Positions 14,559 through 64,000 of a DNA stretch of 64,000 nt are shown here, one piece after another. Position 1 is the stretch's first letter. Each line of letters opens with the position of its first letter. The notes beneath the pieces are model-generated. The model saw nothing but the letters and a program-made list of their open reading frames with translations, was not told the DNA's origin and ran no database searches. This stretch comes from Clostridia bacterium (lineage in GTDB: Bacteria > Bacillota > Clostridia > UBA1381): NCBI GenBank assembly GCA_017415105.1, contig JAFQJD010000018.1, positions 62,001 to 126,000 on the forward strand, written 5' to 3'. Made by a program: the position numbers and the translations under genes.

Positions 14559-14584
14559 GGCGACAGATGTCTGTCGCCGTTTTT
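14559..14584 (+). terminator. Terminator after ilvB
   Basis: The nine-pair stem GGCGACAGA (14559-14567) with its exact complement (14570-14578) is followed by GTTTTT. The next gene starts 15 bases later. Confidence 0.85.
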
Positions 14585-14598
14585 GATAGGAGAACGAT

Positions 14599-16155: not shown

Positions 16156-16156
16156 A

Positions 16157-43400: not shown

Positions 43401-43744
43401 GTGGATACCATGACCAGATGGTATTCGAAAACGGTGAAACAAAGAGAGACTACGACGGTACTAACTTTGCAAAAATGACAAGCCCGAGTATCTTTGTTCA
43501 GGATATCGTATTTGAGGAGGAGAGCATAAACCTTAAAAAAGGCGAGAAAACAACTCCGAAATATTCGGTGCTTCCCAAAGATGCATCAAACAAGAGTGTG
43601 ACCTTCTGGATAACAAACAATAACGTTGCAACTCTCAACCGTGTGACCGGCGAGATAACAGCAGTATCACCCGGAACAACAGAGCTTATTGCAATATCCG
43701 GCGATTTGAAGGTCAATAAGACTTTGACAATAACCGTCAAATAA
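40409..43744 (+). CDS. Secreted multidomain toroid/lyase-like enzyme with Big_2 domain
   Basis: The product has 1111 residues from TTG 40409, eight bases behind AAAGGAGG. A signal peptide (residues 1-34) is followed by a LamG-like jelly roll (about 35-215), Ig-like domains (about 215-430), then a long helical region (about 440-1000) with the repeating aromatic-rich helices of an alpha/alpha toroid (SLLSYLDV-like, YMYWDPFYRLDPEAGYK, ITDWQYMLSNRHASY). Toroids of this kind occur in pectate, heparin and alginate lyases and in GH105-type enzymes, but I cannot assign a family. Residues about 1030-1111 are a Big_2 Ig domain (INLKKGEKTTPKYSVLP...). There is no SLH anchor of its own; the two following proteins have one. 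Confidence 0.6.
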   Translation: MKKNVKQILSRIAASFLAMTVVMGTVTVPIGSAVSLSEIIIDENFDSMQTGVIPEGFEASGDGGTATVGSYMNKTGVAIKNESEGKYVMLSKSFDTITNGVFDLSFNFLQPQTASEAVILSLYNAEGSEFVKLTTNNGAVYLENSGTNELVIPSYQVDRWYGFHLLVNTVTGLCEVFVDGNLKLETTVTNASSTLNKVGFYTVYSPGFYIDDLHLVKNTNTDRLVIEGPQFVSVPKYGANEYKIKACMKDGNNTSLTETPIAWEIVNNNGADLTGVDFVVSDDYGMEGTLIITSDAMYRGIVELKSTYTGEGSEQGAPTASHYVTLMDETIQSLEITGAPRIKNGLTRKERTYEVIATDNLDKTINRVDTTWYLGDGAPSYVSIDDDGVLQVSDTIEKDVHIEICVKADGASEPAKKTVILQTAENYDDDVFRLDIYKKSMDTLIKLYSDPYSKSPLLLSYLDVRTMKPLEWQQVLGQPTLAQSNLATDSMVYRCMDYLSEFTGDPKYKERVDAVYQWHLDYGLSENFMGYWGGHAAINLKDLKPILAPMNYNTHEFKEHYMYWDPFYRLDPEAGYKLCRNVVLAHITDWQYMLSNRHASYSKELDTSMWTNLDAFANDYGIIPTTKEQPFKNMGCDMEHAAGSIVRFTGDEYAREWGLRIFKMYAEAANPVTNIMPSVYTTGKDAEGVKDPDVEFANTFYPYKWYEIDDIDEAYTTVAYGDRFVNQFGEDLVAQGFYDESVLEPGNVTLAEGYYKNSFQTNYMISDLGFAKELGTDTPEGRYIVEKVVKMIEGYLDYAWIKGSNKFRYIMADGTDISDFVPNRSGYYGNYYNRGEKLGHYTVGSSNVEGCIMAYLEAKKRDDLQVQAEKIYEFINFMAEEVLDWGKLGGEEIGDEDMELNYATTDSAYTSVLSLTELYYATGNMEFLDLARVVANNFIKSHYKWGMLISNTSASSSPGSQYVLTLLNGAKYYYALAFLEGAIRGDEDLVQHVRIMGSGYHDQMVFENGETKRDYDGTNFAKMTSPSIFVQDIVFEEESINLKKGEKTTPKYSVLPKDASNKSVTFWITNNNVATLNRVTGEITAVSPGTTELIAISGDLKVNKTLTITVK

Positions 43745-46419: not shown

Positions 46420-49400
46420 ATGAAGAAAATTCTATCTGTAATATTGAGCATAGTCATTGCTACTGCTACTTTACCTATAGCATATGCAAGCGGTTATGCC
46501 ATAAACAACTGGAATGGATTTAAAGGAGACGGTGTTACAGTTGCTAACCCAGACCCTGCGGCAGACTCAGATGATGACGTTGTAAAATTTGTAGTGGGTG
46601 AGGCAGCAACGCTTTCACTTCCGGAATCTGTATATGGAAATATGCTTGTATCATTTGATTTCTATGCAGAAAGTGAGCAGGATTCAGAAATCAACGTACT
46701 TGCATCTGATGATACCGTCATGGGTACATTCGCACTTGCATCAGACGGCACTGCGGGAGCAGAGGCGTATGAGACAGGCAAGTGGCAGACAGCAAAAATT
46801 CTTGTATTCCCCGACGGTAAGATATACAGAGCATACCTTAATGACGTATTCGTTGGCGAGGGAACTATTGATGAAGCATCATTGGCTTGCTCAAAGCTTG
46901 GATTTACAGCAGGCGGTGTTCTATATATAAACAATATTGATGTTTCAGAATACGCACTCCCGCTATGGGCAGATTCAATGCTTAAAACTGTTTACAAGAA
47001 CGACAGTGCAGTAACAGTTGATGCGGCACATCCGTTATTTACGACAGTTTCTGTTGAAAATGCAATAATCGAGGCGAAAATTGATGCAACAGCGATTGAT
47101 GGCGGAAGCCTTTCTTTGACACTTGGTGCAGATAACGGCGAGGGCGTAAAGGTTCTCAATATAAGCGGTACAGAAATCCCCGAGGGTGAATTCACCGTTA
47201 AAGTAAATGTGAGCACAGATTCACAGACAGCAGACGTATATGTTGGCGAGACAAAGGTATCTGAATTCCCTGTATCACTTCTTTCTGCCGACAAAACTCC
47301 GGCAACAGAGATAGGCGAGATAACCTTGGAGGTTACAGGTGAGGGCAGTGTATCTGTAAAGAGCCTTTATGTAAAAGAACAGAGCGAGATTAAAAATCCT
47401 GCAGGTGAGTCAACGAAGATTCTTTACGAAGAAAACTTTAACAATGCAACTGTAGGCTCACCCGTTCCGTACTTTGAAGAGCTTGGTGCATTTACAAAGA
47501 TGGGTGTATCATTCACAACAGTAGATGCAACAACAGGTCATTCAACATCAAATGTTGGTATGTTGAAGCAGAAACACTACTATTCAGGAAACACACTTTA
47601 TCGTTTCAACGATGACGGAACTGCTGATACAGAAGCACAAGGCTTCGCTTCAGGTATCGCTGATACATGGTACAGATACGACCTTTCCGAAAAGGCAGAG
47701 GGCATAGACAATATCACATTGAAGTTTAAATACTACAATGCAATGAATGCCAACTCTTCAGCAGACAATAAGGGTGTAATCCGTGAACGTTTGTTTGCAG
47801 GTTTCGGAACCGGTGATGCAACAAACGGTACAGGTCAGCTTTCGCCTACATCGAAAACAAGTGTTTCGTATTATTTAAATCCCGGTAATCAGTATGCGTA
47901 CTTCCTTGTAAACGGATCAAGCTCCAATGGAGTAAAAGGAACAAAAATTGCATCAAATATCGGTAGAAAATGGCTGGATGCAGAAATTAACATCGAGGAA
48001 AATGCAGACGGAACTGCTACTGTAACAATGAAGGGACAGGACAAAGACGGCAATATGCAGACGGAAACCGGTACAATAGCAGAATTCCCGGTAATCAGAA
48101 ACCTTTCATTCGAGATTCAGCGTGAATACGGCGGTAAGTTCTACATCGACGATATCGAGGTTTCAACAATCGTTACAAGAGACGAGGACGAGTACTATAC
48201 AGAAGCAGAGCTTATGGATATCTCATCAGCTGTTACAGATTCTGTATATACAAACGATATAACAAGAGTAGCGGTAGATGTTGAAGAACCCGATATGCCC
48301 GATGGCACATTCTCGGAGACAATCGAAAACAACAAAACAACATATTACAGCAACGACTTCAGTACAATGGGTGTTTACGGCTTTGAAGAGTCGGAAAACC
48401 TTGAAGCGGCGGCAGTATATGCCGATAATATGGGTTCGGTTATGAGCCTTACTCAGAAAGAGGCAGGAAGTCCTGCAAAGGCTGTATATAAAATAGGAAG
48501 CATCACAGATACATGGGACGGCACAGTTGATACATCGTGGTATGATGCATCGGCTGAGGGCTATGAAATCTGGTCAGGTGCAGACCTTGCAGGTTTGAGA
48601 AAGCTTGTAAATGATACAAAGGTAGACTTTACAGGTAAAACCGTTAAGCTTATGGCAAACATCGACCTTGACAATAAGAACTGGACACCGATTGGTACAG
48701 GTATTGATTCAAATGGCTTTAAGGGTACATTTGACGGTAACGGTCATGAAATCAGAAACCTTAATGTAAGAGAAACAGTTAAGGATTCAGAGAGTAACAC
48801 AAGATACTTCGGCCTTTTCGGTAGAGCAGAAGGACGTATTGCAAACCTCGGCATTAACGGTGCAAAGGTTATAATAACCTCTTACACAATAAAGCCGATG
48901 CATCTTGCAGCACTTGCTTCGTACTTCCAGGGTACAATGGAAAGCTGTTACGTTATAGGTGCAGAGGTTAAGGAGGTTCGTCCGGAAGATGTAGAAAAGC
49001 AGATTAAGTGGATTAAGGACGGCGGTACATGGGCATATAACCGTGACCACGTAGCTGTGCTTGTTGCAAATCTTGCTGCTTCATCAACAGTAAACGGCTG
49101 TTACACAAGAGATGTTAATATCTATGCATCATGGCATTCAATTTCATCTCCGTTCGTTGGTATGTCAAACGGTTCATCAGGCAAGCTTAACTATATCAAG
49201 AACTCATACGCCGCAGCTCCGTTTACATATACAACAAACCCTGCAACGGGTGAACGCGGACGAGTTTATACAATGACTGCAAAGTCAACAAACTCGAACA
49301 CCATAGGTATAAACAACTACATCACACATACAGTTGAGGATTACCGCAGCAAGCCGGGCACTCCGACAGCTGATATCTTCGGTAACGGTTTCTCAACACT

Positions 49401-52400
49401 TGACACTCAGAGTGGTGAAATAGCAACTGTATCAGCAGGTGCATTGGGTGAGTCATTAAAGAGCGCAAACCTTTATGCAGATGATATTGCTAATGTAAAT
49501 GCAGGACACCCGATACTAAAGAGCCAGAGACTCGCAGTTGATGCAGATGAAATGAACATCGCATTTGAGGCAATGGTTCCGACGGGCAGTGATGCAGACC
49601 TTGTTCTCTATTCAGGTAACGAGGTTGCAAAGACAATCAGCCTTACTGACCTTGCAGATAACGAATGGAAAACAATCGACCTTGCATTCAGAAATGGTAC
49701 ATATATCCCGACTATAAACGGAGTGCCGGGTGAAGCTGTCGAGTTTGAGTCGGCTAATGACGGCGTAAGCGAATTTGCATTCGTTGTTAATAACGGCACA
49801 GCTTATATTGAAAATCTTATGATTTATAAGGACAGTGCCGAGCTTCTTAAAAAGAAAATCAACAAGATAATGGCAGACATCTATGAGCAGGTACCCGAAT
49901 ATCCGGTGCTTAACGAGAGTCTGACACTACCTGAAACTGTTGACGGCTATTTAGTAACATGGAAGAGCTCAAACAAGAGCTATGTAACAGACAAGGGTGA
50001 AATTCTTGCGCGCAAGGATTGTACAATGCCGATAAGCTTAACGGCAACAATTACACTCGATCCTGCAAATGCAGATTATGCACCGGCAGATGCAAATGTA
50101 ACATTTAACTTTATGCTTGCACCGGCGGATATCACAGACGATGAAAAAATTGTTGACGGTATCATAGCAGACATTATTAACGGTACATATCTAACAGAGG
50201 AAAAGCATGAAGCTATAACAAAAGACCTTAACACTCTCCCGACAGAGTGGGACGGTGCAACAATTACATGGGAAGCTACAGGCGATGCGATGGATGATGA
50301 GGGTAAAATAACAATACCCGAAACAGACAATGCAGATGTAACACTTAGTGCAACCATAGTACTTGGTGACGTAGAAAAGACTGAAACCCTGAACTTCACA
50401 GTTCTTTCTTATGAGAACATACTCAAAAATGCATCAGATGCTATTACATACGAGCTTATAAACGGTGCTGACGGAAATATGGTTAAGAAAAACCTAAATT
50501 TCCCAAAAACAGGTCTTTACGGCACAGAAATTGAATGGTCATCAAACAGAACTGACCTCATAACCGACAGAGGCTTCCTCATGGAAATCAATGATGAGGA
50601 ATATGTTACAATTACTGTTACAGTAGCAAAGGACGGCAGAAGCACAACAAAGGATATTCCGTTCGTAACATACATTTCACCGACTGTAAAGCTTGCGGCA
50701 GATATGGCTGAAGTTACAGTACCTGAAGAGACCTCTGAAAATATGGAACTTGATACTGTAGGTGACATTTACGGCTCAACAATCACATGGGCATCAAACA
50801 GCACTTATGCTCAGGTGAACGGTGCGAGAATAAACATAACACGTCCTGAATATGTGGTAGGTGACACAACTGTAACGCTTACTGCTACATTCGAGATTGA
50901 CGGTGTCACTGTGAGTAAGGACTACGATGTACTGATCAAGTGCCTGCCATCAAATGAAACATTAATTCAGGCAGAGCTTGATAAGATTGATTTTTCGGAT
51001 ATATCTGATGAATCAGAAGCAGCAGTGCAGGGAAATCTTCACCTTGTATATGACTTCCCGTACGGTATAACACCTACGTGGACATCAGATGCACATGAAG
51101 AGGGAATTGTAACAAACGACGGTATTGTAACACGTCCGGCAATTGGCGAGCCGGATAAAGCGGTTACAATGACACTTAAGCTTGAGCGTGGCGGCGTTGA
51201 GCTTTCAAAGGATATTCCGTTCACCGTAAAGGCATACGGCACAACGCAGGAAATCCTTGACTATGCAAAAGCACAGCTTAACTTCAGAGTGTTGAGTGAC
51301 GACCCGATTAACCTTGTTGTTGACGATTTATTCCTGCCCAAAGCATGGAAGTTCGGAACAGAAATTTCGTGGACATCAGACAGTAATCTGATTAAGGTTG
51401 AAGAGGGAACCGGTGGTAACTATAAGGGAACAGTTACACTTGCGGAGTTCGGAACAACGAACACTCCGGTAAAGCTTACTGCAACAATAACCTATGACGG
51501 GCAGACTGTTACAAAGGATTTCTATGTAACAGTCGGTGAACATCACGGTTATGAGCCACTTATCAATACAGACTTTGAAATGCTTACACGTGGTGTTAAC
51601 TACGCCGCAGACAGAAACAACCTTGGTGGCGGACAGTATGAGCACAATAACCTTTATCAGGTAACCGTTCCGGAAGCTGATCCGGTAAATGGTGAAAATA
51701 CAGCACTTAAGATATATAAGACTTCGGATATGCCGCACATTGACGGTGGTAACTCGTGGGCATTCTTCCGTACTGTTGCAGCACAGCGTCGTGCCGGAAT
51801 AATCAGAATTGAACAGGATATATATCTGGAGAGTATGCCTAATCTGACATACAGAATAGTTGGTTCAGTCGGTGGCGGTAAGGACGGCAACTACGAGGAA
51901 ATAAATGTTAATATCAATAAGGATGGCGAAATATATCAGTGGAAGAGCGATTACACTGCTTCAAAGAAGATAGAATTCGGAAAGTGGAATACTCTTGCAA
52001 TTGAGTTCAGCACATACGAGAAGTGGATTGATATATACCTCAACGGTGATCTTGTGTTGGATAATGCACCATTCCAGTGGAATAAGGATGGTACAAATAT
52101 CTCGGCACTGAAGATCAAGTTTAACCCCGGTGCTGATAAGGTAACTACTGCAAATGATACACACACCCTGTATATTGATGATTTGAAGGTTTTGAGAAAA
52201 GTAGACTATTCAGGTGAGATGGCAGCTGCTGCAAAGGATCTCGAGGTTGGATTCCTTGCAGCACAGAATATCAACGAAATCACAAGCAATGTTGTAATCC
52301 CTGACCTTTCAAAGTATGAGCTTGAGGTATCAGGCACATCTTCAAACACTAATGTTGTAGCAAATGACGGAACAGTTACAAGACCGGCAAGCGATACCGA

Positions 52401-53484
52401 AGTAGAATACACAGTTAAGCTTTCAAGTGAGTTTGGCGGTGTAAGAGAACGTACATTTAAACTATTGGTTAAGGGTTCGGACTTTACACCGGGCGTATCA
52501 GGCGGTACGGTAACTGATGCAGAGAAGGTTCTTTCAGATATCAACAGTGCAATCACAGAGCTTAAGAACAACCACACATTAAACTATGTGACAGGTAACC
52601 TCACGTTACCGACAACTGCTCCGAAGGGTAGCACAATCACATGGAAGAGCCTTAATACATCTGTTGTTTCAAACAGTGGTGCAGTAACTCGTCCGAGTGC
52701 TGATACTACAGTTACTATTATTGCTACAGCTACACTAAACGGTATAAGCGAAAGAAAAGAAGTTCAGATCACTGTAAAGGCAGGCACACAGTCCGGTCCG
52801 GTAATAATTCCGGGTGCAGGTGCAGGTACAACAGGTAGTAATTCAGGCGGCGGTCTTTCGGGCGTAATGCCTTATGAGCCTCCAAAGACGACTGAAACAC
52901 AAACGCCGTCTGAAATTCCTACTACATCAGTTGGATTTGTGGATATTACAAACCACTGGGCAAAGGATTACATAACGGAACTCTATAATGCAGGCGTTAT
53001 AAACGGCGTTTCAGAGACTGAATTTGCACCGAATGACTCAATTTCAAGAGAGGCATTCCTCACAATGCTAATCCGTGCACTTGGAAACGAGCTTGATGCT
53101 GATTACGGCGAAGTATTTGACGATGTTAAACCGGATGACTGGTATTATCAGTATGTAATGGAAGGCTATAAGATGGGTATCGTAAACGGTACTTCAATGA
53201 CAGAATTCGGCACAGGCGCAAACATTTCAAGACAGGATCTGTGTACAATGATTGCACGTGCACTTGAGTCAGAGGGAATAGAGATGGATGCGGAGACTGC
53301 ATCAGAATTTGCGGATAACATCCTTATAGAAATCTATGCAAAGGATGCCGTATACGGTTTGCAGAATCTTGGCATTATCAATGGTAAAGATAACAACTAT
53401 TTCGATCCGACAGGCGTAGCTACACGTGCAGAGGCTGCAAAGATTATGGCAGGACTTATGGCTGTTCTTGCAGAAGCTGAATAA
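46420..53484 (+). CDS. Giant secreted SLH protein with eight Ig-like repeats
   Basis: The product has 2354 residues. A signal peptide ends near A23. Domains in order: an N-terminal module (about 25-185), a second jelly-roll module (about 330-590), a GLUG-like segment with GTFDGNGHEIRNL (about 770), a laminin-G-like domain (about 1030-1135), six atrophied-Big (aBig_2) repeats at about 1139, 1237, 1330, 1420, 1510 and 1607, a second LamG-like domain (about 1711-1925), two more Ig repeats at about 1930 and 2032, a Gly/Ser/Pro linker, and three C-terminal SLH repeats (about 2169-2354). No catalytic motif is seen. The first two modules recur in the esterase at the end of this window. It is probably a surface-anchored carbohydrate-binding scaffold. 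The start follows AAGGAGGG. Confidence 0.75.
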   Translation: MKKILSVILSIVIATATLPIAYASGYAINNWNGFKGDGVTVANPDPAADSDDDVVKFVVGEAATLSLPESVYGNMLVSFDFYAESEQDSEINVLASDDTVMGTFALASDGTAGAEAYETGKWQTAKILVFPDGKIYRAYLNDVFVGEGTIDEASLACSKLGFTAGGVLYINNIDVSEYALPLWADSMLKTVYKNDSAVTVDAAHPLFTTVSVENAIIEAKIDATAIDGGSLSLTLGADNGEGVKVLNISGTEIPEGEFTVKVNVSTDSQTADVYVGETKVSEFPVSLLSADKTPATEIGEITLEVTGEGSVSVKSLYVKEQSEIKNPAGESTKILYEENFNNATVGSPVPYFEELGAFTKMGVSFTTVDATTGHSTSNVGMLKQKHYYSGNTLYRFNDDGTADTEAQGFASGIADTWYRYDLSEKAEGIDNITLKFKYYNAMNANSSADNKGVIRERLFAGFGTGDATNGTGQLSPTSKTSVSYYLNPGNQYAYFLVNGSSSNGVKGTKIASNIGRKWLDAEINIEENADGTATVTMKGQDKDGNMQTETGTIAEFPVIRNLSFEIQREYGGKFYIDDIEVSTIVTRDEDEYYTEAELMDISSAVTDSVYTNDITRVAVDVEEPDMPDGTFSETIENNKTTYYSNDFSTMGVYGFEESENLEAAAVYADNMGSVMSLTQKEAGSPAKAVYKIGSITDTWDGTVDTSWYDASAEGYEIWSGADLAGLRKLVNDTKVDFTGKTVKLMANIDLDNKNWTPIGTGIDSNGFKGTFDGNGHEIRNLNVRETVKDSESNTRYFGLFGRAEGRIANLGINGAKVIITSYTIKPMHLAALASYFQGTMESCYVIGAEVKEVRPEDVEKQIKWIKDGGTWAYNRDHVAVLVANLAASSTVNGCYTRDVNIYASWHSISSPFVGMSNGSSGKLNYIKNSYAAAPFTYTTNPATGERGRVYTMTAKSTNSNTIGINNYITHTVEDYRSKPGTPTADIFGNGFSTLDTQSGEIATVSAGALGESLKSANLYADDIANVNAGHPILKSQRLAVDADEMNIAFEAMVPTGSDADLVLYSGNEVAKTISLTDLADNEWKTIDLAFRNGTYIPTINGVPGEAVEFESANDGVSEFAFVVNNGTAYIENLMIYKDSAELLKKKINKIMADIYEQVPEYPVLNESLTLPETVDGYLVTWKSSNKSYVTDKGEILARKDCTMPISLTATITLDPANADYAPADANVTFNFMLAPADITDDEKIVDGIIADIINGTYLTEEKHEAITKDLNTLPTEWDGATITWEATGDAMDDEGKITIPETDNADVTLSATIVLGDVEKTETLNFTVLSYENILKNASDAITYELINGADGNMVKKNLNFPKTGLYGTEIEWSSNRTDLITDRGFLMEINDEEYVTITVTVAKDGRSTTKDIPFVTYISPTVKLAADMAEVTVPEETSENMELDTVGDIYGSTITWASNSTYAQVNGARINITRPEYVVGDTTVTLTATFEIDGVTVSKDYDVLIKCLPSNETLIQAELDKIDFSDISDESEAAVQGNLHLVYDFPYGITPTWTSDAHEEGIVTNDGIVTRPAIGEPDKAVTMTLKLERGGVELSKDIPFTVKAYGTTQEILDYAKAQLNFRVLSDDPINLVVDDLFLPKAWKFGTEISWTSDSNLIKVEEGTGGNYKGTVTLAEFGTTNTPVKLTATITYDGQTVTKDFYVTVGEHHGYEPLINTDFEMLTRGVNYAADRNNLGGGQYEHNNLYQVTVPEADPVNGENTALKIYKTSDMPHIDGGNSWAFFRTVAAQRRAGIIRIEQDIYLESMPNLTYRIVGSVGGGKDGNYEEINVNINKDGEIYQWKSDYTASKKIEFGKWNTLAIEFSTYEKWIDIYLNGDLVLDNAPFQWNKDGTNISALKIKFNPGADKVTTANDTHTLYIDDLKVLRKVDYSGEMAAAAKDLEVGFLAAQNINEITSNVVIPDLSKYELEVSGTSSNTNVVANDGTVTRPASDTEVEYTVKLSSEFGGVRERTFKLLVKGSDFTPGVSGGTVTDAEKVLSDINSAITELKNNHTLNYVTGNLTLPTTAPKGSTITWKSLNTSVVSNSGAVTRPSADTTVTIIATATLNGISERKEVQITVKAGTQSGPVIIPGAGAGTTGSNSGGGLSGVMPYEPPKTTETQTPSEIPTTSVGFVDITNHWAKDYITELYNAGVINGVSETEFAPNDSISREAFLTMLIRALGNELDADYGEVFDDVKPDDWYYQYVMEGYKMGIVNGTSMTEFGTGANISRQDLCTMIARALESEGIEMDAETASEFADNILIEIYAKDAVYGLQNLGIINGKDNNYFDPTGVATRAEAAKIMAGLMAVLAEAE

Positions 53485-53559: not shown

Positions 53560-55173
53560 ATGAAAGAATTAAAATTTGAAGAGTTATCGGTAAAACAGAA
53601 GCTTGGTATGGTTATGTGCGGTCTTATTCCGGCCGAAAACCGTACAGAAGAGAATGATGAGTACGTGCTTGACTTAATCCGTAACCACTGTCTGGGAGCA
53701 GTATGGGTAAACCACAAGACAAAAGACGTGGAAAAAATTATGGCAAGAATTAAAGAAGCTGCCGACTATCCTATCCTGATTTTAACAGACGCAGAAAGCG
53801 GAATGGGCGATTATATTATCGGTAAGCATAATAACCTTGGTATGGCAGACAGCGAGGAGCTTGCATACGCTTTCGGAAAGATTACAGCTATTGAGGCAAG
53901 AAAAATGGGATATAACGTAGTTTGTAACCCTATTCTTGATATAAAAAATTATTGTGCGATCTGCGGAACCAATATCCGTGCAATAGGTTCCGATAAATAC
54001 AGAGTGGCAGAGCTGGCAAAAGCAGAGGCACAGGGTATGCATGACGGTGGTGTTTTAACTGTTGGTAAACACTATCCGAGCCCGAATAAAAAACCGGAGG
54101 GCAGAATTATTGACTCACATATGGCAGAAGCAGTAGGCTATGAAACCGAAGAAGAGCTTATTGAGAATTGTTTGTATGCATATAAGGAGCTTTCGGATGC
54201 AGGTGTTCTTGACGGTATTATGACAGCTCACACAAGAATGATAAATATTGATGATAAATATCCGACATCACTTTCAAAGAAGGTTATAAGCCTCATAAGA
54301 GAGCAGGGCTTTGACGGCTTTATTATTACTGATGCACTTTCAATGATGGGCGTTGTTGCGAAGTTCGGTCTTACAGACCCGAAAGGAATGTGTATTGAAG
54401 CAGGTAACGACCTTTCACTTTGCTGGACAAGTAAGACATGGGAAGGCTTTGATGCTATCTGCGATTGCTATGAAAGAGGTCTTATATCTGACGAAAGACT
54501 TGACGAGGCAACAAAGAAGGTTCTTGAGATGCATCACAGAGTAATGGAGCTTGAACCGAAATTCGATGACCTCACAGATGAGGATATAGCACAATTTGAA
54601 AGATTGGGCACTGATTCTATTTACGCAAAAATAGATGACGGAATAAACCCGGCAATTTCAAAGGACGGAAAGCATTACTTTATCGTTCTTACCGGTAATG
54701 GAACACAGATCAATGAGGCAGGAAAGGTTGATGTTGCTACATTTGCCGGAAACATCTGGCATGGAGGCTGGTATGACACCAGCAGAATATTGGGTAAAAT
54801 CACTGATATGTTCCCCAATTCCGAGGCTGTAGCAATAGAAGAATATCCGTCACCAAATTATGTTCAGAAAACTCTGCAGGATGCGGCAAAATATGATGAT
54901 GTAATATTGATAACATATCAGGATGCACAGGCTTATGCGGGAAGAGAATGTCTGACAGCAAGAATTGTTTCAATGGTAGATTGTATGCAGGTTACGGATT
55001 CTGTAAGTGCAGTTGTACATTTCGGAAACCCATATGTTCTTGAGGATTTGGTTCATATTCCGCGTATTATTGTAGGCCCAACTTCAAGAGGCGGCGTGGA
55101 TGCCGCATTTGAAGTTCTTGTCGGCAACTACCCTGCAAAGGGCAAGCTTACATATGATGTAAAATTTGAATGA
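53560..55173 (+). CDS. GH3-family glycosidase, copy 1 (beta-N-acetylhexosaminidase-like)
   Basis: The product has 537 residues, cytoplasmic. The GH3 barrel (about 1-330) starts with SVKQKLGMVMCGLI, has ILTDAESGMG, VLTVGKHYPS with K170-H171, the D185-S186-H187 triad of NagZ-type enzymes, GIMTAHTRM, and the nucleophile D258 in FDGFIITDALSMMG. The GHG found after KHFP in NagZ is replaced by a shorter loop. The C-terminal 200 residues form the alpha/beta sandwich found in many GH3 enzymes. A DSH loop points to N-acetylhexosaminides; other beta-glycosides cannot be excluded. It follows the giant SLH gene and has a near-duplicate directly downstream. Confidence 0.85.
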   Translation: MKELKFEELSVKQKLGMVMCGLIPAENRTEENDEYVLDLIRNHCLGAVWVNHKTKDVEKIMARIKEAADYPILILTDAESGMGDYIIGKHNNLGMADSEELAYAFGKITAIEARKMGYNVVCNPILDIKNYCAICGTNIRAIGSDKYRVAELAKAEAQGMHDGGVLTVGKHYPSPNKKPEGRIIDSHMAEAVGYETEEELIENCLYAYKELSDAGVLDGIMTAHTRMINIDDKYPTSLSKKVISLIREQGFDGFIITDALSMMGVVAKFGLTDPKGMCIEAGNDLSLCWTSKTWEGFDAICDCYERGLISDERLDEATKKVLEMHHRVMELEPKFDDLTDEDIAQFERLGTDSIYAKIDDGINPAISKDGKHYFIVLTGNGTQINEAGKVDVATFAGNIWHGGWYDTSRILGKITDMFPNSEAVAIEEYPSPNYVQKTLQDAAKYDDVILITYQDAQAYAGRECLTARIVSMVDCMQVTDSVSAVVHFGNPYVLEDLVHIPRIIVGPTSRGGVDAAFEVLVGNYPAKGKLTYDVKFE

Positions 55174-55176: not shown

Positions 55177-55201
55177 AAAGGGACTGAATAAGTCCCTTTT
55201 T
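55177..55201 (+). terminator. Terminator after the first GH3 gene
   Basis: AAAGGGACT (55177-55185) pairs exactly with 55191-55199 across a five-base loop and ends in a T run. Confidence 0.85.
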
Positions 55202-55303: not shown

Positions 55304-56914
55304 ATGAAAGAATTAAAATTTGAAGAGCTATCAGTGAAACAGAAGCTCGGTATGGTTATGTGCGGTCTTATTCCGTGCGAAAACCGTACAGAGGAAAACG
55401 ATGAATATGTTCTTGACTTAATCCGAAACCACTGCCTTGGTGCTGTATGGGTAAACCCCAGCACAAAAGACGTTGACAAGATTATGGCAAGAATTAAAGA
55501 AGTTGCCGATTATCCTATTCTTATATTAACAGACGCAGAAAGCGGAATGGGCGATTACAAGATAGGTAAGCACAACAATCTTGGTATGACAGATAACGAA
55601 GAGCTTGCATATACTTTCGGAAAGATTACTGCAATACAAGCAAGAAAGATGGGCTATAACGTGGTTTGTAATCCTGTTATTGATATGATAGACCGTTGCG
55701 GAATATGCGGTGCGAATGTACGTCACATGGGCTCTGATAAATATAGAGTAGCTGCGTTGGCAAAAGCAGAAGCACAAGGTATGCATGACGGCGGAGTATT
55801 AACAGTAGGCAAGCATTATCCGAGTGCCAACAAGTCTGAAGGCAGACCGATTGACTCGCATATGGCAGAAAGACTGGCACTTGAAACAAAAGAAGAGCTT
55901 GTTGATTACAATTTATATCCGTATATTGAACTTTCAAAGGCAGGAGTTCTTGATGGTATTATGACCGGACATGTAAGAATGCCGAATATTGATCCTGATT
56001 ATCCGGCTTCACTTTCAAAGAAAGTAATCAATGTAATAAAAGAACAGGGCTTTGACGGCTTTATTATTACGGACGCTCTGTCGATGATGGGCGTTGTAGC
56101 AAAGTTCGGTCTTACAGACCCGAAGGGTATGTGTATTGAAGCAGGTAACGACCTTTCACTTTGCTGGACGGCTCAGACAAAGGAAGGCTTTGATGCTATC
56201 TGCGATTGCTACGAAAGAGGTCTTATCTCTGATGAGAGACTTGACGAGGCAACAAAGAAAGTCCTTGAAATGCATCACAGAGTTATGGAGCTTGAGCCGA
56301 AGTTTACAGAGATAACAGAAGAGGATAAAGCGAACTTCAAAAGAATAGGCACTGATTCTATTTTTGCAAAAATAGATGACGGAATAAATCCGGCAATTTC
56401 AAAGGACGGTAAGCATTTCTTTTTAGTTCTTACCGGTAACGAGACAGATATCAATACTGCCGGAAAGGTTGATGTTGCTACATTTGCCGGAAACATCTGG
56501 CACGGCGGCTGGTACGATATCCAGAGAATATTAGGAAAACTTGAGGATATGTTCCCGAATTCCAAAGCAATAGCAATAAGAGAATATCCGTCCGGTAGTG
56601 ATATTCAGAAACATCTGGAGGATGCGGCAAATTATGATGATGTAATCTTTGTAACATATCAGGATGCGGCGGCTTATGTGGGAAGAGAGTGTCTGACATC
56701 AAGAATTGTATCTATGATAGATGCATTGCAGGTTACAGGCTCCGTAAGCGCAGTTGTGCATTTTGGAAACCCGTTTGTTCTTGAAGATTTGACTCATATT
56801 CCGCGTATTATCGTTGGTCCGACTTCAAAAGGTGGCGTGGATGCGGCATTTGAAGTTCTTGTGGGAGATTATCCGGCAAAGGGCAAGCTTACATACGATG
56901 TAAATTTTGAATAA
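55304..56914 (+). CDS. GH3-family glycosidase, copy 2 (beta-N-acetylhexosaminidase-like)
   Basis: The product has 536 residues with the same architecture as the first copy: DSH at 184-186, nucleophile D257 in FIITDALSMMG, and a C-terminal alpha/beta sandwich. One residue is lost in the loop after KHYPS. The start follows GGGAGGAG. Unlike copy 1 it is followed without a gap by the ASRT-domain gene (its stop shares a base with an ATG), so this copy belongs to the ASRT-isomerase operon. Divergence in the substrate loop suggests a different leaving group or linkage. Confidence 0.85.
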   Translation: MKELKFEELSVKQKLGMVMCGLIPCENRTEENDEYVLDLIRNHCLGAVWVNPSTKDVDKIMARIKEVADYPILILTDAESGMGDYKIGKHNNLGMTDNEELAYTFGKITAIQARKMGYNVVCNPVIDMIDRCGICGANVRHMGSDKYRVAALAKAEAQGMHDGGVLTVGKHYPSANKSEGRPIDSHMAERLALETKEELVDYNLYPYIELSKAGVLDGIMTGHVRMPNIDPDYPASLSKKVINVIKEQGFDGFIITDALSMMGVVAKFGLTDPKGMCIEAGNDLSLCWTAQTKEGFDAICDCYERGLISDERLDEATKKVLEMHHRVMELEPKFTEITEEDKANFKRIGTDSIFAKIDDGINPAISKDGKHFFLVLTGNETDINTAGKVDVATFAGNIWHGGWYDIQRILGKLEDMFPNSKAIAIREYPSGSDIQKHLEDAANYDDVIFVTYQDAAAYVGRECLTSRIVSMIDALQVTGSVSAVVHFGNPFVLEDLTHIPRIIVGPTSKGGVDAAFEVLVGDYPAKGKLTYDVNFE

Positions 56915-56931
56915 TGAAGGGAGAATTTGTT

Positions 56932-57300
56932 ATGGGAAAGAAAGATTGGAGCATAGTTGACGGATATCGTCCGCCTCTTAAAAAGGGTGATGCAACAGAT
57001 TATAAAGGACACGAGTGCGTTCTGATTTTAAACAGAACAGAGCAGGATGCACATTGTCTGATTGATATTTATTTTGAGGATAAACCTCCGGTTAAGGGTA
57101 TTGAGTTTACAGCACCTGCCGAGAGAATAAGTACATTCTATACAGACAATGAGGAGCTTTTAGGTAAAGCAGGTCTTGAGATTATGCAGCAGTATGCTAT
57201 GCATATTTCAAGCGATACCGAAATTGTTGTGCAGTACGGCAGAATGGATGTAAACCAGGATAACCTTGCGTATATGGTTACACTGGGCTACGGAGAATAA
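56932..57300 (+). CDS. ASRT-family (sensory rhodopsin transducer-like) small-molecule-binding protein
   Basis: The start is ATG 56932 because AAGGGAG lies eight bases ahead; an ATG at 56914 has no site. The product has 122 residues: WSIVDGYRPP, GHECVLILNRTEQDAHCLIDIYFED, PPVKGIEFTAPAER and IVVQYGRMD follow the pattern of the Anabaena sensory rhodopsin transducer family (PF07100), a beta-sandwich. The family extends far beyond rhodopsin-bearing organisms and is predicted to bind small molecules. No rhodopsin is present here. In this operon a sugar-binding or mutarotase-like accessory role is more likely than signalling. Confidence 0.85.
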   Translation: MGKKDWSIVDGYRPPLKKGDATDYKGHECVLILNRTEQDAHCLIDIYFEDKPPVKGIEFTAPAERISTFYTDNEELLGKAGLEIMQQYAMHISSDTEIVVQYGRMDVNQDNLAYMVTLGYGE

Positions 57301-57312
57301 TGGAGGATTATT

Positions 57313-58356
57313 ATGACTAAAATAAACACGGTTCTTGGAGAGATAACAAGAGATGAGCTTGGTGTAATAGCACCGCACGAGCATTGCTTTATTGATGTCA
57401 CTTTTGAGGAGATTCCGCCGAAAACCGAGGAGGAAAAAGAGCTCTTCTACTCAAAGGTAGCAATTGACAACATTGATATTTTGAGAAGAAATCCGTTCCT
57501 TGTAAAGGACAATATGATACTTGACGATGTTGATATTGCAGTAAATGAAGTAAAAAGATTCAAAAAGGCAGGCGGCGATACTATTGTTGACCTTACCACT
57601 ATCGGAATTAAGCGTGACTTTAAAAAAATCCGTGAGGTAAGTGAACGCAGTGGTGTTAATATCATAGCAGGAAGCGGTCTTTACACAGGTCTCTCAATTC
57701 CGAAGCCATATTCGGAAATGAACGAGGACCAGATTGCCCAGATGATGATTAAGGAAATCAAATACGGTGATGAAGAAACAGGAATAAAGCCCGGCGTAAT
57801 TGGTGAGATAGGCACAAGTGCAACTATTGAGCCGTTAGAGACAAAATCACTTCGTGCTGCGGCGTTTGCTAATCTTGAAACACATCTGCCTATCTATATC
57901 CATACATATTCATGGTCACAGGCATCGCTTGAGGCTGTTGATATTCTTACAGCCGAGGGTGTGAGACCGGATCAGATTTGCATATGTCATCTTGACGTTG
58001 AATTTGATCACGATTACCTTGAAAAAGTGTTTGACAAGGGCGTTTATGCTATGTTTGACAACTTCGGCAAGGAGTATTATTTTACTGCTCAGGATGCAGT
58101 GTTTGCAGGCGGTCCGTTTGAGACTGACCTTGATCGTGTTCGTATGATAATCCGTATGATTAAGGAAAACCATACAGACAGACTGATGCTCGCAACTGAT
58201 GTATGTCTGAAATCGCTGTTGCATACATATGGTGGCTGGAGCTATGACCATATATTCACAAACATTATGCCTATGATGGAAAATGAGGGCATAAGTAAGG
58301 AAGATATTGACACAATTATACATAAGAATCCGACAGAATTCATTTGTTCAAGATAA
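57313..58356 (+). CDS. Phosphotriesterase-family (PTE/Php-like) metal hydrolase
   Basis: The product has 347 residues. The amidohydrolase-fold metal site shows H22-E-H24 in APHEHCFID, E165 in GEIGTS where the two-metal bridge is a glutamate (Php type) instead of a carboxylated lysine, histidines in PIYIHTYS and ICICHLD, and an aspartate in LATDVCLKSLL. Family members include lactonases and phosphodiesterases. Between an ASRT protein and a sugar isomerase, a sugar-lactone or sugar-phosphate ester substrate is plausible. The start follows TGGAGG. Confidence 0.85.
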   Translation: MTKINTVLGEITRDELGVIAPHEHCFIDVTFEEIPPKTEEEKELFYSKVAIDNIDILRRNPFLVKDNMILDDVDIAVNEVKRFKKAGGDTIVDLTTIGIKRDFKKIREVSERSGVNIIAGSGLYTGLSIPKPYSEMNEDQIAQMMIKEIKYGDEETGIKPGVIGEIGTSATIEPLETKSLRAAAFANLETHLPIYIHTYSWSQASLEAVDILTAEGVRPDQICICHLDVEFDHDYLEKVFDKGVYAMFDNFGKEYYFTAQDAVFAGGPFETDLDRVRMIIRMIKENHTDRLMLATDVCLKSLLHTYGGWSYDHIFTNIMPMMENEGISKEDIDTIIHKNPTEFICSR

Positions 58357-58374
58357 GAAAAGGAGAGAAATAAA

Positions 58375-59877
58375 ATGGAAAATGAGTTTATAACATCTTT
58401 TGAAGTAGCAGATGGCGGTGCGGTTGGTGACATCGTATCAAGAGACCGCAAAGATGCAAGAAAGAGACTTAAAGTAGGTCTTTTGCCACTTTCATGGTTT
58501 GAGTGGTGGCCGATGTATCCTGAAAGCGGGCTTAAAGAAAAAATCCAGAGCGACAGCGATAAGTTCGTTGAGATAATGCAGAAAAAGTTCGGCGATAAAT
58601 ATCAGCTTGTTGTTCCTGAAAAGCACGTTGACACGCTTGATAAGGCGTTTGATATGGGTGAGTATTTTAAACGTGAGGGCGTTGATGCCGTAATTATAGA
58701 TGAGTCAACATATATTACTGACTTTATCCCGATTCAGGCTATTGATGCACTTGGTAATATCCCGATTATTCTGTTCGTTACACAGGCAACAGACAACCTA
58801 TGGGATACAATGTGTAACACAGATGTTATCCGCTTTGAGGGACTTGTGGGTAACACACAGCTTGCAGGTGCATTCAAGAAAATGGGACGTTCGTACAAGG
58901 CAGTAGTCGGCTCGCTTGAGGATAATGAAGCGTTTGAAGAAATCGGCAGACACTTAAAGGTTTTACAGCTGATTGAGGATTTGAAGTACATGGATATCGG
59001 CTTTGTGGGCCATACATTCCGCGGAATGTACGATATCGAAGTAGACAAAACAAAGATAAAGGGAGTATTCGGACCTAACGTTTTGTACCTTGATGTCAAC
59101 CACCTTATAGGTATCTGGGAAGCACTTACAGATGATGAGATTTCAGATTATGTCGCAACAATCAAGAAAGAACTTCCGTACAGAATCGAGGGTATTGACG
59201 AGGAGGATATACGAAAGTCAGTATCAGTCGGACTTGCTGTAAAGAAGCTCATAAAGCAGTTCAATATTGACGGACTTACACTTTTGGGACAGCACCATGT
59301 TGAGGTTGCAACACGTGCATCGGCTGACCTTTCATTCTACTGTGCTGAAAACGATGGCTGTATGACAAGCCACGAGGGCGACCTTGCAAACCTTGTTATG
59401 AAGTATATTCTTAACAAGCTCACAGGCGATTTGCCGGTATTTTTGGAGTGGTCAGCGTTTGATATTGCAACAGACACTCTTTTATTAACACATCACGGCG
59501 TTGTTGATCCGAAAATCCATGCAGCAGACCAGAACAAGTGCCGAATTACTCCGTCACCGGAAAAATGGGACTTTACAGGTCACGGTATGTCAGTTGAGTA
59601 TATGTCAAAGCCGGGTAAGGTTACACTTGCTTGTCTTATTGACGATAAAGAAGGCTGGAAGTTGTTGCTTTCAGGCGGTGAGTGTCTTGAGCTTGCACAG
59701 GCGCCGAGCTTTGCACCGCAGTTCAGATTCAAGCACGAATCACTTACTGTTAAGGAATACATAAAGGAAATAGTCGAAGAGGGCGTTGCACACCACGTAT
59801 GTCTTGTTTACGGCGACTATCGTGAGGATTTAAGACTTTATGCTAAATATGCAGGCTTGAAAACTGTTGAAATATAA
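58375..59877 (+). CDS. L-fucose/L-arabinose isomerase-fold protein
   Basis: The product has 500 residues. It has the FucI/AraA three-domain layout: N-terminal Rossmann-like region (LKVGLLPLSWFEWWPMYPES, DAVIIDESTYITDFIP), a middle domain with IGFVGHTFRGMYDIEVD, and a C-terminal barrel with E and H metal-ligand candidates (TSHEGDLANL, LLTHHGVVDP, GHGMSVEYM). Enzymes of the fold interconvert aldoses and ketoses using Mn2+. The sugar is unknown, and residues diverge from both FucI and AraA. The start follows AAAGGAG 18 bases after the phosphotriesterase stop. Confidence 0.8.
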   Translation: MENEFITSFEVADGGAVGDIVSRDRKDARKRLKVGLLPLSWFEWWPMYPESGLKEKIQSDSDKFVEIMQKKFGDKYQLVVPEKHVDTLDKAFDMGEYFKREGVDAVIIDESTYITDFIPIQAIDALGNIPIILFVTQATDNLWDTMCNTDVIRFEGLVGNTQLAGAFKKMGRSYKAVVGSLEDNEAFEEIGRHLKVLQLIEDLKYMDIGFVGHTFRGMYDIEVDKTKIKGVFGPNVLYLDVNHLIGIWEALTDDEISDYVATIKKELPYRIEGIDEEDIRKSVSVGLAVKKLIKQFNIDGLTLLGQHHVEVATRASADLSFYCAENDGCMTSHEGDLANLVMKYILNKLTGDLPVFLEWSAFDIATDTLLLTHHGVVDPKIHAADQNKCRITPSPEKWDFTGHGMSVEYMSKPGKVTLACLIDDKEGWKLLLSGGECLELAQAPSFAPQFRFKHESLTVKEYIKEIVEEGVAHHVCLVYGDYREDLRLYAKYAGLKTVEI

Positions 59878-59890
59878 AGGGGGAAGTAAA

Positions 59891-60691
59891 ATGGCAAATT
59901 TGAGAGATAAAATGTGGATGCTCGGCGAAACACCGGGTTCACATCATAAGTGGGCTCCGTACAATCTGCCGGGTGTAAACACAATGACACCGATGGAAGG
60001 GCTTGAGTTCTTCGGTGTTAAAAACCTTTGCCGTATGAAAATGAAAAGTGACGGCGACCTCAGCTATGTTACAGATGACCTTATCAGGGACGAAAAGGGT
60101 ATTATGGACAGACTCAGCCTTTCACTTACAGGTGCAGGTGAAAGACCGATTGATGCGGATAAAGACACTCTTGATGAAATTCTTGAAGTTGGCAGAAAGG
60201 AAAAGAGACTTGTTTCTGCAATCAACGACGATTTTTTCCACGGCGAACGTCCTAAAATCTATACTCCGGATGTACTTGCAACACAGCGTGAAACACTGCA
60301 CACAGCGATTGATCATCCGATTGAGTTCTGGTCAGTAGTTTATGAGAGATCATATCTTGCAAATGAGGATGTGTATGCTCACGCAAAGGAATTTGACCTG
60401 ACAACATTCTGGATATGGTATGCAGAGAATATCAAAGACATCAAAAAGTATTTTGAATGGGGAAAGAGCCTCACAAAGGAAGGAAGAATTATCCTTGGTA
60501 TTTATATGTGGGACTACGGCAACGGTGCACCTGTTCCTGATGATTTAATGAAATATCAGCTTGATTTTGCGTATGAAAAGCTGGTATCGGGCGAAGCAGA
60601 GGGACTTATGCTCCACTCAAGCAATAATGCGGATATAGGACTTAAAGCTACTGATATTACTCAGGAATGGCTTAAGGAAATGATTAAATAA
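59891..60691 (+). CDS. Uncharacterised TIM-barrel-like protein of the ASRT-isomerase operon
   Basis: The start is ATG 59891 behind AGGGGGAAG; the product has 266 residues and no signal peptide. Alternating strands and helices (GVKNLCRMKM, RLSLSLTGAG, KRLVSAINDDF, EFWSVVYERSY, LTTFWIWYAENI, GRIILGIYMWDYGNG, GLMLHSSNNAD) look like a beta/alpha barrel. Asp and Glu residues at strand ends suggest a hydrolase or aldolase-type active site, but no known motif is met. I do not recognise the family. It lies 13 bases after the isomerase gene and is closed by a terminator, so it is the last gene of the operon. Confidence 0.6.
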   Translation: MANLRDKMWMLGETPGSHHKWAPYNLPGVNTMTPMEGLEFFGVKNLCRMKMKSDGDLSYVTDDLIRDEKGIMDRLSLSLTGAGERPIDADKDTLDEILEVGRKEKRLVSAINDDFFHGERPKIYTPDVLATQRETLHTAIDHPIEFWSVVYERSYLANEDVYAHAKEFDLTTFWIWYAENIKDIKKYFEWGKSLTKEGRIILGIYMWDYGNGAPVPDDLMKYQLDFAYEKLVSGEAEGLMLHSSNNADIGLKATDITQEWLKEMIK

Positions 60692-60702: not shown

Positions 60703-60728
60703 AAAATGCAGCAAACCGCTGCATTTTT
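60703..60728 (+). terminator. Terminator after the ASRT-isomerase operon
   Basis: AAAATGCAGC (60703-60712) pairs exactly with 60718-60727 across a five-base loop, ending in five T residues. Confidence 0.88.
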
Positions 60729-60889: not shown

Positions 60890-63800
60890 ATGAAAAGACT
60901 AATATCCTTGATACTTAGTGTTATGCTTATGTTCAGCGGAATTACCGTAGCAAATGCAGATGCAACGGCAGTTGGTATAGGCATCAACCGTTGGAACGGA
61001 TTTGTCGGTGGCGGTGTGACAACACTGAATCCTACAGATAATTCCGATGATGTAGTAAAACTCACTGCAGGCGAAGAAACGACACTTTCACTTGATAATT
61101 CTGTAAGCGGGAATATGCTTATTACTGTTGAGGTTTATGCAGAATCAGCACAAAATTCAACGATTACCGCACTTGCTTCAGACGCAACTACAGTTATGGG
61201 AAGTTTTACGACTGCAAATACTAAATTTGAAACCGGAAAATGGCAGACTGCCAAAATACTTGTATTTCCGAATGGTAAAATATACAGAACATACCTTAAT
61301 GATAGCTACCTTGGTGAGGGCGAAATTTCAGGTGTGTCATTGAGCCTTGGGGAAATCAAATTCAGTGCAGGCGGAACTCTTTACATAAACAATATTTCTG
61401 TTTATGACTATACTACACCCGTTTTGGAGAATTCAAAGCTGAGAACTGTTTATAGCAGTAATTTTGCAGGAACAACAAGCACAACCAATAAAATCAGCAG
61501 TGTTGACGGTTGGAGTTGTAATGCGTCAGACAGTACGATAGGATACTATCTTGTACCCGATCCGAAAAACAGCAGTGAAAATGCTGTAAAAATTGCAAGA
61601 ACTGCAACAAGCGGATCAACTAACCGTTTTGCAAAAGGAATAAACTTCGCAAACGCTTCTTATGAAATGAAGCTATACATTCCGTCAAAGCTTGATGATG
61701 GTGCGACAGACAACCCTGTAAACTTTAAAATGTTCGTAAGAACCGATAACTCGGTTAATCCAACAACTGTTTGGATACGCTCTAATGGTGCTGCAACTAT
61801 AGGCATACCTGAGGTTGGCAGATTTACTGCACCTCTTGATGAATGGTTCACATTAAAGCTGAACATAAACATGGACGCGCAGACAATTGACGTTTATGTG
61901 GGCGATGAAAAGGTATCTGATGAGTCAATTTCTCTTTTAAAGGCTGACGGGACACCTGCAACAAAGTGTACAGAAATAGATTTGGAGGTACCGAGAGAAA
62001 ACAGTAGCGGTATTGCATATTTTAAGGACATTGCTATAAATGAGCAAAATCCTGTAAAAATAGAGGCAAAAGCTGATAAAACCATAATCTATGAGCAGAA
62101 CTTCAATGACGAAGCGGTTGGTGCAAATGTTCCGGGCTTTACACACGGATCAAGACTTGAGGCGGACACTGCACTGACATTTACTACAGCAGCAGGTGCA
62201 GCAGGCTCAACAAGCCGTGTGGGTATGCTTTATGACCCGTCATATACGGATGCAACTGCATACCGTTATACCGATGCAGGAGAAACAGATACAACTGCCA
62301 TTAAGAAGGACTATAAGAGTCAGGAATGGTGGTCGTATGATATTTCAGAAAAAACGGCAAATCTGGATAACATCACATTAAGTTTTAAATATTACAATGC
62401 AAAAAATGTCGGCAACCACGAAAAGTACAGTTGGGCATTGAGCCGTGACCACTTATTTGCAGGCTTTGCAACCGGTATGGGCGATACTGCAACCGGTAAT
62501 ATGTATTACACCGGAGCAAGCAGTATAGCGATGTATATGAAACCCGGCAACCAGAAGGTTGCACTTATGCAGAATGCTTCAAGATCAAATGGTACGAATG
62601 TTCCAATCAGTGTAGGTGCGTGGAAAGATTTATCTTTGACAATTACTAAAAATGCTGACAATACAGCTACTGCGAAAATCAAATCAGAAGCAACAGAGGA
62701 TACATATTCTCTTACAAGCTTCCCGACAATCAGTAAGCTGTCATTCCAACTTGATGAACTTTACGGCGGAAAATACTACATTGATGATATAGAAGTGTAT
62801 TCAGCACAATACACGGAGGAAGTTCTTTATACAGAAAGCGAGCTTAAGGATATAAGCACAGCTACAATTATTCCAGTATATACAAATACCATTACAAGAA
62901 ATAATGTACCTACATTTACAATAGACGGAATTAACTTCTCGGACGGCACCGCAAATGTCAGTACAGAAAACGCTGTTTCAAGTGTAGCTGTTACACAGTG
63001 GAAAAACCTTGATGAAAATGTAAATGCGTGGCTGTATACTGCCGTATATAATGCAGAGGGCAGACTTCTTAAAGCACAGAAGCAGGAGCTTACAGCACAG
63101 GCACTTACAGAAAAGGGTACAGTAGATATAGATGATATTTCCTGCGACGGAGCAGAGTATGCAAAAGCATTCATATGGTCAGATGACCTTGCACCTCTTG
63201 CAGAGGGATACTTTGTCGGAAAGAAAATAACCGTATGGATTGCAGGCTCATCTACTGCACAGGACTATCCTGCCGAAAGATATCCGCAGGCTGGCTGGGG
63301 ACAGATGATAGACCCGTATTTTTATGAAAACTCGGTAACTGTTAACAATAAGGCTGTTGGCGGAAGAAGCTCAAAGTCATTTATTCAGGAAGGCAGACTT
63401 GATGAAATCCTTGCAAGCGGACAGTCGGGCGATTATCTCTTTGTATGGTTCGGCGGAAACGATGCATCAAAGAAAGGTATGCTTGAGTATACAGACCCGA
63501 CACTTGGCTGGGACGTTGTTGATTCCAACCCCGACGGATACAGTGAGGATGCAAGCTATAAATATTATCTAAAGCAGTATGTTGACGGTGCAAGGGCAAA
63601 GGGTATGATACCTGTATTTGTTACAGTTCTTCCAATGTATAGCGAAAGAAACGGTCAATATGTCGGCAGCAACTATGCCGCAGAACACGTAGAGGCAATG
63701 ATTAACCTTGGTGAAGAGCTCGGTGTTCCGGTTTCAAACGTTAATTCGAAGTTTATCAATGCTATGGAGTCAATGAGTCTGGAAGAAGTGAAAAAGCACT

Positions 63801-64000
63801 ATATGATATTTAAGTTCGCAGACTATGCAAATGACCCGAAATTCAGCCCCGATTATCATATTGCATCAGGCAATTATGACGCAGAAACTGACCTTTATTA
63901 TGATAATGTTCACATCACTGAGCTTGGAGCTGACCTTTGTGCAAAATTCATTGCAGATGACATCAAAAATATGCCGATTGGCTTGTCAAATTATATTAAA
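60890..64000 (+). CDS. Secreted CE12-like (rhamnogalacturonan acetylesterase-type) SGNH esterase, 3' end beyond the window
   Basis: ATG 60890 follows AAAAGGAG and the frame is open to the last base (1037 codons), so the stop lies beyond the window. A signal peptide ends at ANA (residue 23). Residues about 30-185 (INRWNGFVGGGVTTLNP, ETGKWQTAKILVFPNGKIYR) and a later jelly-roll module (about 400-630) match the first two modules of the giant SLH protein. Residues about 780-1020 are an SGNH hydrolase: AGSSTAQDY with nucleophile S788, NKAVGGRSSKSF, FVWFGGND, and D1005-N-V-H1008, the pattern of carbohydrate esterase family 12. It likely deacetylates pectin (rhamnogalacturonan) outside the cell. An SLH or Ig anchor may lie past the window edge. 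Confidence 0.8.
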   Translation, partial: MKRLISLILSVMLMFSGITVANADATAVGIGINRWNGFVGGGVTTLNPTDNSDDVVKLTAGEETTLSLDNSVSGNMLITVEVYAESAQNSTITALASDATTVMGSFTTANTKFETGKWQTAKILVFPNGKIYRTYLNDSYLGEGEISGVSLSLGEIKFSAGGTLYINNISVYDYTTPVLENSKLRTVYSSNFAGTTSTTNKISSVDGWSCNASDSTIGYYLVPDPKNSSENAVKIARTATSGSTNRFAKGINFANASYEMKLYIPSKLDDGATDNPVNFKMFVRTDNSVNPTTVWIRSNGAATIGIPEVGRFTAPLDEWFTLKLNINMDAQTIDVYVGDEKVSDESISLLKADGTPATKCTEIDLEVPRENSSGIAYFKDIAINEQNPVKIEAKADKTIIYEQNFNDEAVGANVPGFTHGSRLEADTALTFTTAAGAAGSTSRVGMLYDPSYTDATAYRYTDAGETDTTAIKKDYKSQEWWSYDISEKTANLDNITLSFKYYNAKNVGNHEKYSWALSRDHLFAGFATGMGDTATGNMYYTGASSIAMYMKPGNQKVALMQNASRSNGTNVPISVGAWKDLSLTITKNADNTATAKIKSEATEDTYSLTSFPTISKLSFQLDELYGGKYYIDDIEVYSAQYTEEVLYTESELKDISTATIIPVYTNTITRNNVPTFTIDGINFSDGTANVSTENAVSSVAVTQWKNLDENVNAWLYTAVYNAEGRLLKAQKQELTAQALTEKGTVDIDDISCDGAEYAKAFIWSDDLAPLAEGYFVGKKITVWIAGSSTAQDYPAERYPQAGWGQMIDPYFYENSVTVNNKAVGGRSSKSFIQEGRLDEILASGQSGDYLFVWFGGNDASKKGMLEYTDPTLGWDVVDSNPDGYSEDASYKYYLKQYVDGARAKGMIPVFVTVLPMYSERNGQYVGSNYAAEHVEAMINLGEELGVPVSNVNSKFINAMESMSLEEVKKHYMIFKFADYANDPKFSPDYHIASGNYDAETDLYYDNVHITELGADLCAKFIADDIKNMPIGLSNYIK

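Follow-up and report, generated by a model that had tools for sequence, protein, structure and literature searches.

A protein of a rhodopsin-transducer family (ASRT) that lies, with no rhodopsin, among carbohydrate enzymes raises the question of which compound such an operon handles and what the ASRT protein contributes to it. The locus is part of a window of 64,000 nucleotides, the whole stretch of DNA that we analysed, from a Clostridia bacterium whose assembly amounts to 1.8 Mb in 40 contigs. The original prediction, made from the sequence alone, read its five genes as a sugar catabolic pathway in which a glycosidase frees a sugar that is then bound, hydrolysed and isomerised. Sugar processing is well supported by our results, but neither that order of events nor a substrate is; the operon probably processes an unusual sugar, perhaps an acylated or amino sugar.

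Operon layout

The five genes were found as plus-strand open reading frames separated by gaps of 0–18 nt (Table 1), and their Pfam matches and structure models agree with the identities initially proposed. Each start is preceded by a purine-rich stretch that resembles a ribosome-binding site. The likely start of the ASRT gene is 56932 (122 amino acids), which yields the family-like beginning MGKKDW and has a better ribosome-binding stretch than 56914, and the barrel gene likely starts at ATG 59891, for which the ORF list has TTG 59867. The predicted boundaries are correct, because a terminator-like hairpin is present on each side. The upstream hairpin, AAAGGGACT-GAATA-AGTCCCTTT with a T run, was missed by a pattern scan and detected by folding; it lies between the operon and a second GH3 gene, whose product is 82.9% identical to the operon GH3. 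Judged by this layout, the genes form a single operon and would be co-transcribed. Their order recurs in other genomes and is therefore not due to chance. The operon contains neither a transporter nor a regulator of its own. It is flanked by genes for very large secreted proteins (46420–53484 and 60890–64000) with closely similar starts (GYAINNWNGFKGDGVT / GIGINRWNGFVGGGVT), and these thus appear to be paralogous surface proteins.

Table 1. Features of the operon and its surroundings; positions refer to the window unless a locus is named.
Feature	Position	Strand	Basis
GH3 paralogue (537 aa), NagZ-like motif KH...DSH, separate upstream unit	53560..55173	+	PF00933, 132 bits
Terminator-like hairpin between the two GH3 genes	about 55177..55200	+	fold -13.4 kcal/mol, z -4.2
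GH3 glycosidase (536 aa), beta-N-acetylhexosaminidase-like	55304..56914	+	PF00933; nearest 6k5j; TDA and DSH motifs
ASRT/ASRAH-domain protein (ORF 128 aa)	56914..57300	+	PF07100; homologous to 2ii7, 1nc7
Phosphotriesterase-family (PTE) metal hydrolase (347 aa)	57313..58356	+	PF02126; conserved ligands; 3k2g/9efa
AraA/FucI-fold isomerase (500 aa)	58375..59877	+	model fold; aligned metal-ligand positions
TIM-barrel protein outside known families (266 aa)	59891..60691	+	AlphaFold2 model
Terminator-like hairpin closing the operon	60703..60727	+	fold z -4.2
M24 protein (example)	L101:7731-8918		Asp metal ligands replaced

Isomerase and PTE-family hydrolase

The model of the isomerase (pLDDT 89) aligns with E. 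coli AraA (4f2d) with a VIA Z of 32.5 over 460 residues and with L-fucose isomerase with a Z of 29.3. Profile alignment to AraA places the metal ligands at E334, E358, H374 and H473/H474, positions that are invariant across 21 diverse relatives and match E306, E333, H350 and H450, which we take to be the metal ligands of E. coli AraA. The fold and the Glu/Glu/His/His set assign the protein to the AraA/FucI superfamily, as had been predicted, and it is probably an active enzyme of the aldose-ketose isomerase type. It is nonetheless a subfamily separate from AraA, with which it shares 16% identity; its score against the curated AraA equivalog is 52.6 bits, far from the cut-off of 622. In Pfam, Arabinose_Iso_C is matched slightly above and Fucose_iso_C below the cut-off. 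The best NCBIfam match is another member of the superfamily, the sulfoquinovose isomerase SftI, but its 86 bits remain below the cut-off of 700 and sulfo-sugar genes were not recognised in the isomerase operons.

The PTE-family protein matches PF02126 with 228.6 bits. Its metal ligands H22, H24, E165, H197, H226 and D296 are 100% conserved among 29 aligned sequences and follow the family pattern of four His, a bridging Lys/Glu and an Asp, which suggests that it is probably an active metal hydrolase. With the PTE-related proteins (3k2g, 9efa and PTER) it shares full-length similarity, the six ligands and Glu as the bridging residue, whereas it stays well below the NCBIfam equivalog cut-offs. 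Its earlier description as lactonase-like must be regarded as a guess, since it reaches 99 of the 630 bits required by the phospho-furanose lactonase model NF045706 and the solved proteins most closely related to it (3k2g and 9efa) belong to a branch that includes an amidase. This amidase, mammalian PTER, hydrolyses N-acetyltaurine (PMC11374699), and an amidase or deacylase role is therefore as open to the window enzyme as a lactonase role.

GH3 enzyme and barrel protein

The operon GH3 carries the GH3 N domain (PF00933, 134.8 bits) with an Asp nucleophile motif and a D-S-H acid/base motif, and its nearest solved chain is a GH3 beta-N-acetylglucosaminidase (6k5j, E 7e-29). The NagZ-type loop KHFPGHG is altered to KHYPSANKSEG, and the score against the NagZ-type equivalog PRK05337 (95 bits) does not reach the cut-off of 207; the protein is therefore labelled NagZ-like rather than NagZ. 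It probably resembles beta-N-acetylhexosaminidases, an activity predicted from these similarities. No GH3 gene was found near any of 80 other isomerase loci, which marks it as a local addition outside the core.

The last protein had been described as belonging to no recognisable family, and indeed no Pfam or NCBIfam family was matched above cut-off, nor did its profile find anything significant among PDB sequences. Structure prediction and fold search yielded a glycosidase-like beta/alpha (TIM) barrel (AlphaFold2 model, pLDDT 91.2, pTM 0.90). The best VIA-align score was obtained with GH164 (Z 15.5), followed by GH5_18 and glucuronidases (Z about 15), all at low identity, and Foldseek matches were weak and mixed. 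Compared with the TIM-barrel glycosidases GH164, GH5_18 and GH113, the overall barrel shape is the same (Z 14–15), but identity is at most 15% and the alignment does not place the canonical catalytic Glu pair in the barrel protein. Among 20 aligned relatives, W9, E36, D113, D114, W147, Y151, D169, W174 and Y205 are conserved and likely mark a putative functional site; the conserved acids E36, D113, D114, D169 and D208 include no visible canonical catalytic pair. The protein is thus glycosidase-like in shape and could be another barrel enzyme. The family is rare, because it occurs in 12 of the 391 class-sample genomes and, at E 1e-12, in none of the 298 genomes that accompany the window genome in a 299-genome phylum-wide sample. 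Barrel genes adjoin PTE and M24 genes in five further genomes (L016, L081, L082, L086 and L087) and an M24 gene at a second locus of the window genome (L008).

ASRT protein

The ASRT protein matches PF07100 over profile positions 1–118 of 119 with 101.8 bits (gathering score 25), and family membership is based here on this score. It resembles Anabaena ASRT (2ii7) and TM1070, and 1nc7 is also homologous. H33, E34 and N40 are invariant in 28 operon copies, but the SHExxCxxN signature is incomplete in all of them, as its Cys is replaced by Met, Leu or Ile. According to De Souza, Iyer and Aravind (2009; PMC2739507), the His and Cys of this signature touch the ligand in the Thermotoga protein, and the replacement suggests a different ligand contact in the operon ASRTs.

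In that article, stand-alone ASRT proteins were placed in sugar operons and sugar sensing was proposed. Reading the genes around the operon bears out the claim of a rhodopsin-independent ASRT among sugar enzymes and agrees with the 2009 argument. Both sets share a rhodopsin-free, stand-alone ASRT with a conserved H-E...N strand, located beside a sugar isomerase and carbohydrate enzymes. However, the neighbourhoods described there contain an isomerase with aldolase and kinase, a monosaccharide ABC transporter and a dehydratase/oxidase, whereas kinase and aldolase were not recognised in the window operon. Conversely, PTE, M24, Amidohydro_2 pairs and deacetylases, which are present in the operons described here, go unmentioned in the parts of PMC2739507 covered here. 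Another ASRT operon of the window genome (L007, contig C1) consists of M24, ASRT, creatininase, DUF4432 and GH3 genes, and a further ASRT copy adjoins M24 at L009.

Conserved neighbourhood across bacteria

Scanning 84,980 species genomes for relatives of the isomerase yielded 80 loci from at least eight phyla, including Clostridia, Paenibacillaceae, Chloroflexota, Lentisphaerota, Planctomycetota, Armatimonadota, Acidobacteriota, Spirochaetota, Bacteroidota and Verrucomicrobiota. Partners in the 77 operon runs (74 without L077, L078 and L079, which repeat contigs already scanned, the window included) were M24 (39), Amidohydro_2 (33), PTE (29), ASRT (29), PIG-L (18), AraC (18), ABC permeases (16), polysaccharide deacetylase (16) and SGNH esterase (10), together with sugar ABC transporter genes. 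A kinase or aldolase was not recognised in these operons. Of the 80 isomerase genes, 31 have an ASRT gene nearby, compared with 0.13–0.2 expected from the class-sample density and 3.1 from the window-genome density; these expectations ignore relatedness, and the P values are only indicative because the loci are related.

The association of ASRT, PTE and isomerase, whose absence elsewhere would have spoken against the predicted pathway, is thus widely conserved. The locus with 84% isomerase identity (L101) has the order ASRT-LacI-M24-PTE-isomerase-barrel; L096 preserves ASRT-PTE-isomerase within barrel-ASRT-PTE-isomerase-NagB-GH20-GH20-NagA-GH20, and L095 reads barrel-barrel-PTE-isomerase. The closest relatives of the window operon retain PTE and isomerase with ASRT and/or barrel, and the complete set GH3-ASRT-PTE-isomerase-barrel occurs in the window only.

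Adjacent Amidohydro_2 pairs were found at 25 loci (e.g. L077, L108, L120 and L149), and in 24 of the 25 one copy keeps the D-x-H-x-H metal motif while the other is without it, which makes a catalytic/non-catalytic heteromer likely. In all 34 aligned M24 copies, both prolidase-type Asp metal ligands are replaced (by Ala, Thr or others) while His and Glu are kept, and these metal-less proteins may perform non-peptide chemistry. Loci with PTE/Amidohydro_2 and loci with PIG-L/deacetylase fall on the two sides of one branch of the isomerase tree. A repeated mutual replacement of the two hydrolase modules was rejected, since one change suffices on this tree; the module-exclusivity P of 3e-6 therefore cannot be read as independent events, and the single switch is weak evidence for shared deacylation.

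A 674-residue protein that matches neither Pfam nor NCBIfam is encoded in 16 operon runs (L108:5253-7277 and 15 other loci). At L080 (G115, contig C17, positions 1-16706) the same genes seem to be repeated almost perfectly in inverted orientation, possibly as an assembly palindrome.

Substrate hints

PIG-L proteins and polysaccharide deacetylases are N-deacetylase families, and their metal residues are conserved in the operon partners. The window itself contains, 18–20 kb upstream of the operon, a NagA above the TIGR00221 cut-off and a NagB-like gene. Such genes adjoin the isomerase in L096 and L161, and a NagB-like gene does so at L164, in total only 2–3 of 80 loci. The GH3 type, the deacetylase-type partners and these NagA/NagB neighbours favour a sugar that is N-acetylated or acylated, each being a modest hint. 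The sugar could plausibly come from a plant glycan, because a pectate-lyase-domain protein (40409-43744) and secreted proteins with SLH and GDSL domains are also encoded in the window. A GxDLY + GDSL_3 esterase (5455-6522), located about 50 kb upstream and adjacent to an aldose 1-epimerase, shares its Pfam architecture with the SGNH gene found in L077-type operons.

Proposed pathway and alternatives

The explanation that we place first, at about even confidence, is a cytoplasmic operon dedicated to one unusual sugar, likeliest N-acetylated or otherwise acylated, from a plant or host glycan. The GH3 enzyme would cut a beta-linked, probably N-acetylhexosaminyl, end off an imported oligosaccharide, and on the sugar thus released the PTE-family enzyme would hydrolyse either an acyl linkage (amide or ester) or a lactone. 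Aldose–ketose interconversion of the product would fall to the AraA-fold enzyme, which would use a divalent metal, while the barrel protein might bind or cut a further sugar linkage. The ASRT protein may bind the substrate or an intermediate and adjust the enzymes, serving in sensing rather than in light transduction. The chemistry, the order of the steps and the substrate are what we infer from gene content and similarity. Several points argue against this course: GH3 is missing at all other isomerase loci, NagA/NagB are few, the single switch between hydrolase modules speaks only weakly for shared deacylation, no kinase or aldolase was recognised, the window operon lacks its own transporter and regulator, and the ASRT Cys is replaced.

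A neutral-sugar route, with the PTE protein as a sugar lactonase and the isomerase acting on a rare pectin aldose or deoxysugar that carries no acyl or amino group, seems unlikely, although lactonases do exist in the PTE family (the NCBIfam model matched with 99 bits) and sugar lactonases in the Amidohydro_2 families, and the pectate-lyase-domain protein upstream would fit such a source. Opposed to it are the large distance of the PTE protein from the lactonase cut-off, the deacetylase-type partners in one clade, and the operon runs, in which a lactone-making sugar dehydrogenase was not recognised as a recurrent partner.

It is less probable still that PTE, M24 and amidohydrolase target an amide or a ring that contains nitrogen, for example a sugar–amino acid conjugate, of which the isomerase takes the remainder. 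The loss of both Asp ligands in the 34 aligned M24 copies would suit such chemistry, as would the weak model matches of one M24 to ectoine hydrolase and DMSP lyase (both M24 enzymes that do not act on peptides), the creatininase-family genes near M24 in L007, L097 and L098, and the amidase activity of PTER on N-acetyltaurine (PMC11374699); however, the window operon has no M24, and amino-acid genes are not constant neighbours. That the genes were assembled without a common pathway is highly improbable: barrel and GH3 are variable members and the full set is confined to the window, but ASRT-PTE-isomerase recurs in order in L096, ASRT-LacI-M24-PTE-isomerase in L101, and the core extends across phyla.

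We also tentatively consider a widespread and undescribed pathway for acylated or amino sugars, in which metal-less M24, an ASRT sensor and the AraA-fold isomerase would form the core and the ASRT protein would be a metabolite-responsive enzyme subunit. A lineage-specific deacylating module would complete it, either PTE with the catalytic/non-catalytic amidohydrolase pair or PIG-L with polysaccharide deacetylase.

Significance

The occurrence of ASRT in sugar operons was already reported in 2009 (PMC2739507). New is a distinct and widespread gene set in which the partners are PTE, M24 and either amidohydrolase or deacetylase, and in which no kinase or aldolase was recognised. A search of the open-access literature found no report of this combination, only the 2009 ASRT paper (PMC2739507) and, separately, PTER. 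Paenibacillus strains, gut Clostridia, Lentisphaerota, Planctomycetota and Acidobacteriota all carry the same set, which points to a common component of glycans; its breakdown route is not described in the open-access literature searched. The ASRT family was named after the light sensor of one cyanobacterium, and copies exist in bacteria that have no rhodopsin. Testable enzymes that accompany ASRT in a conserved operon provide a short list of candidate ligands and thus a concrete route to learning the function of this family.
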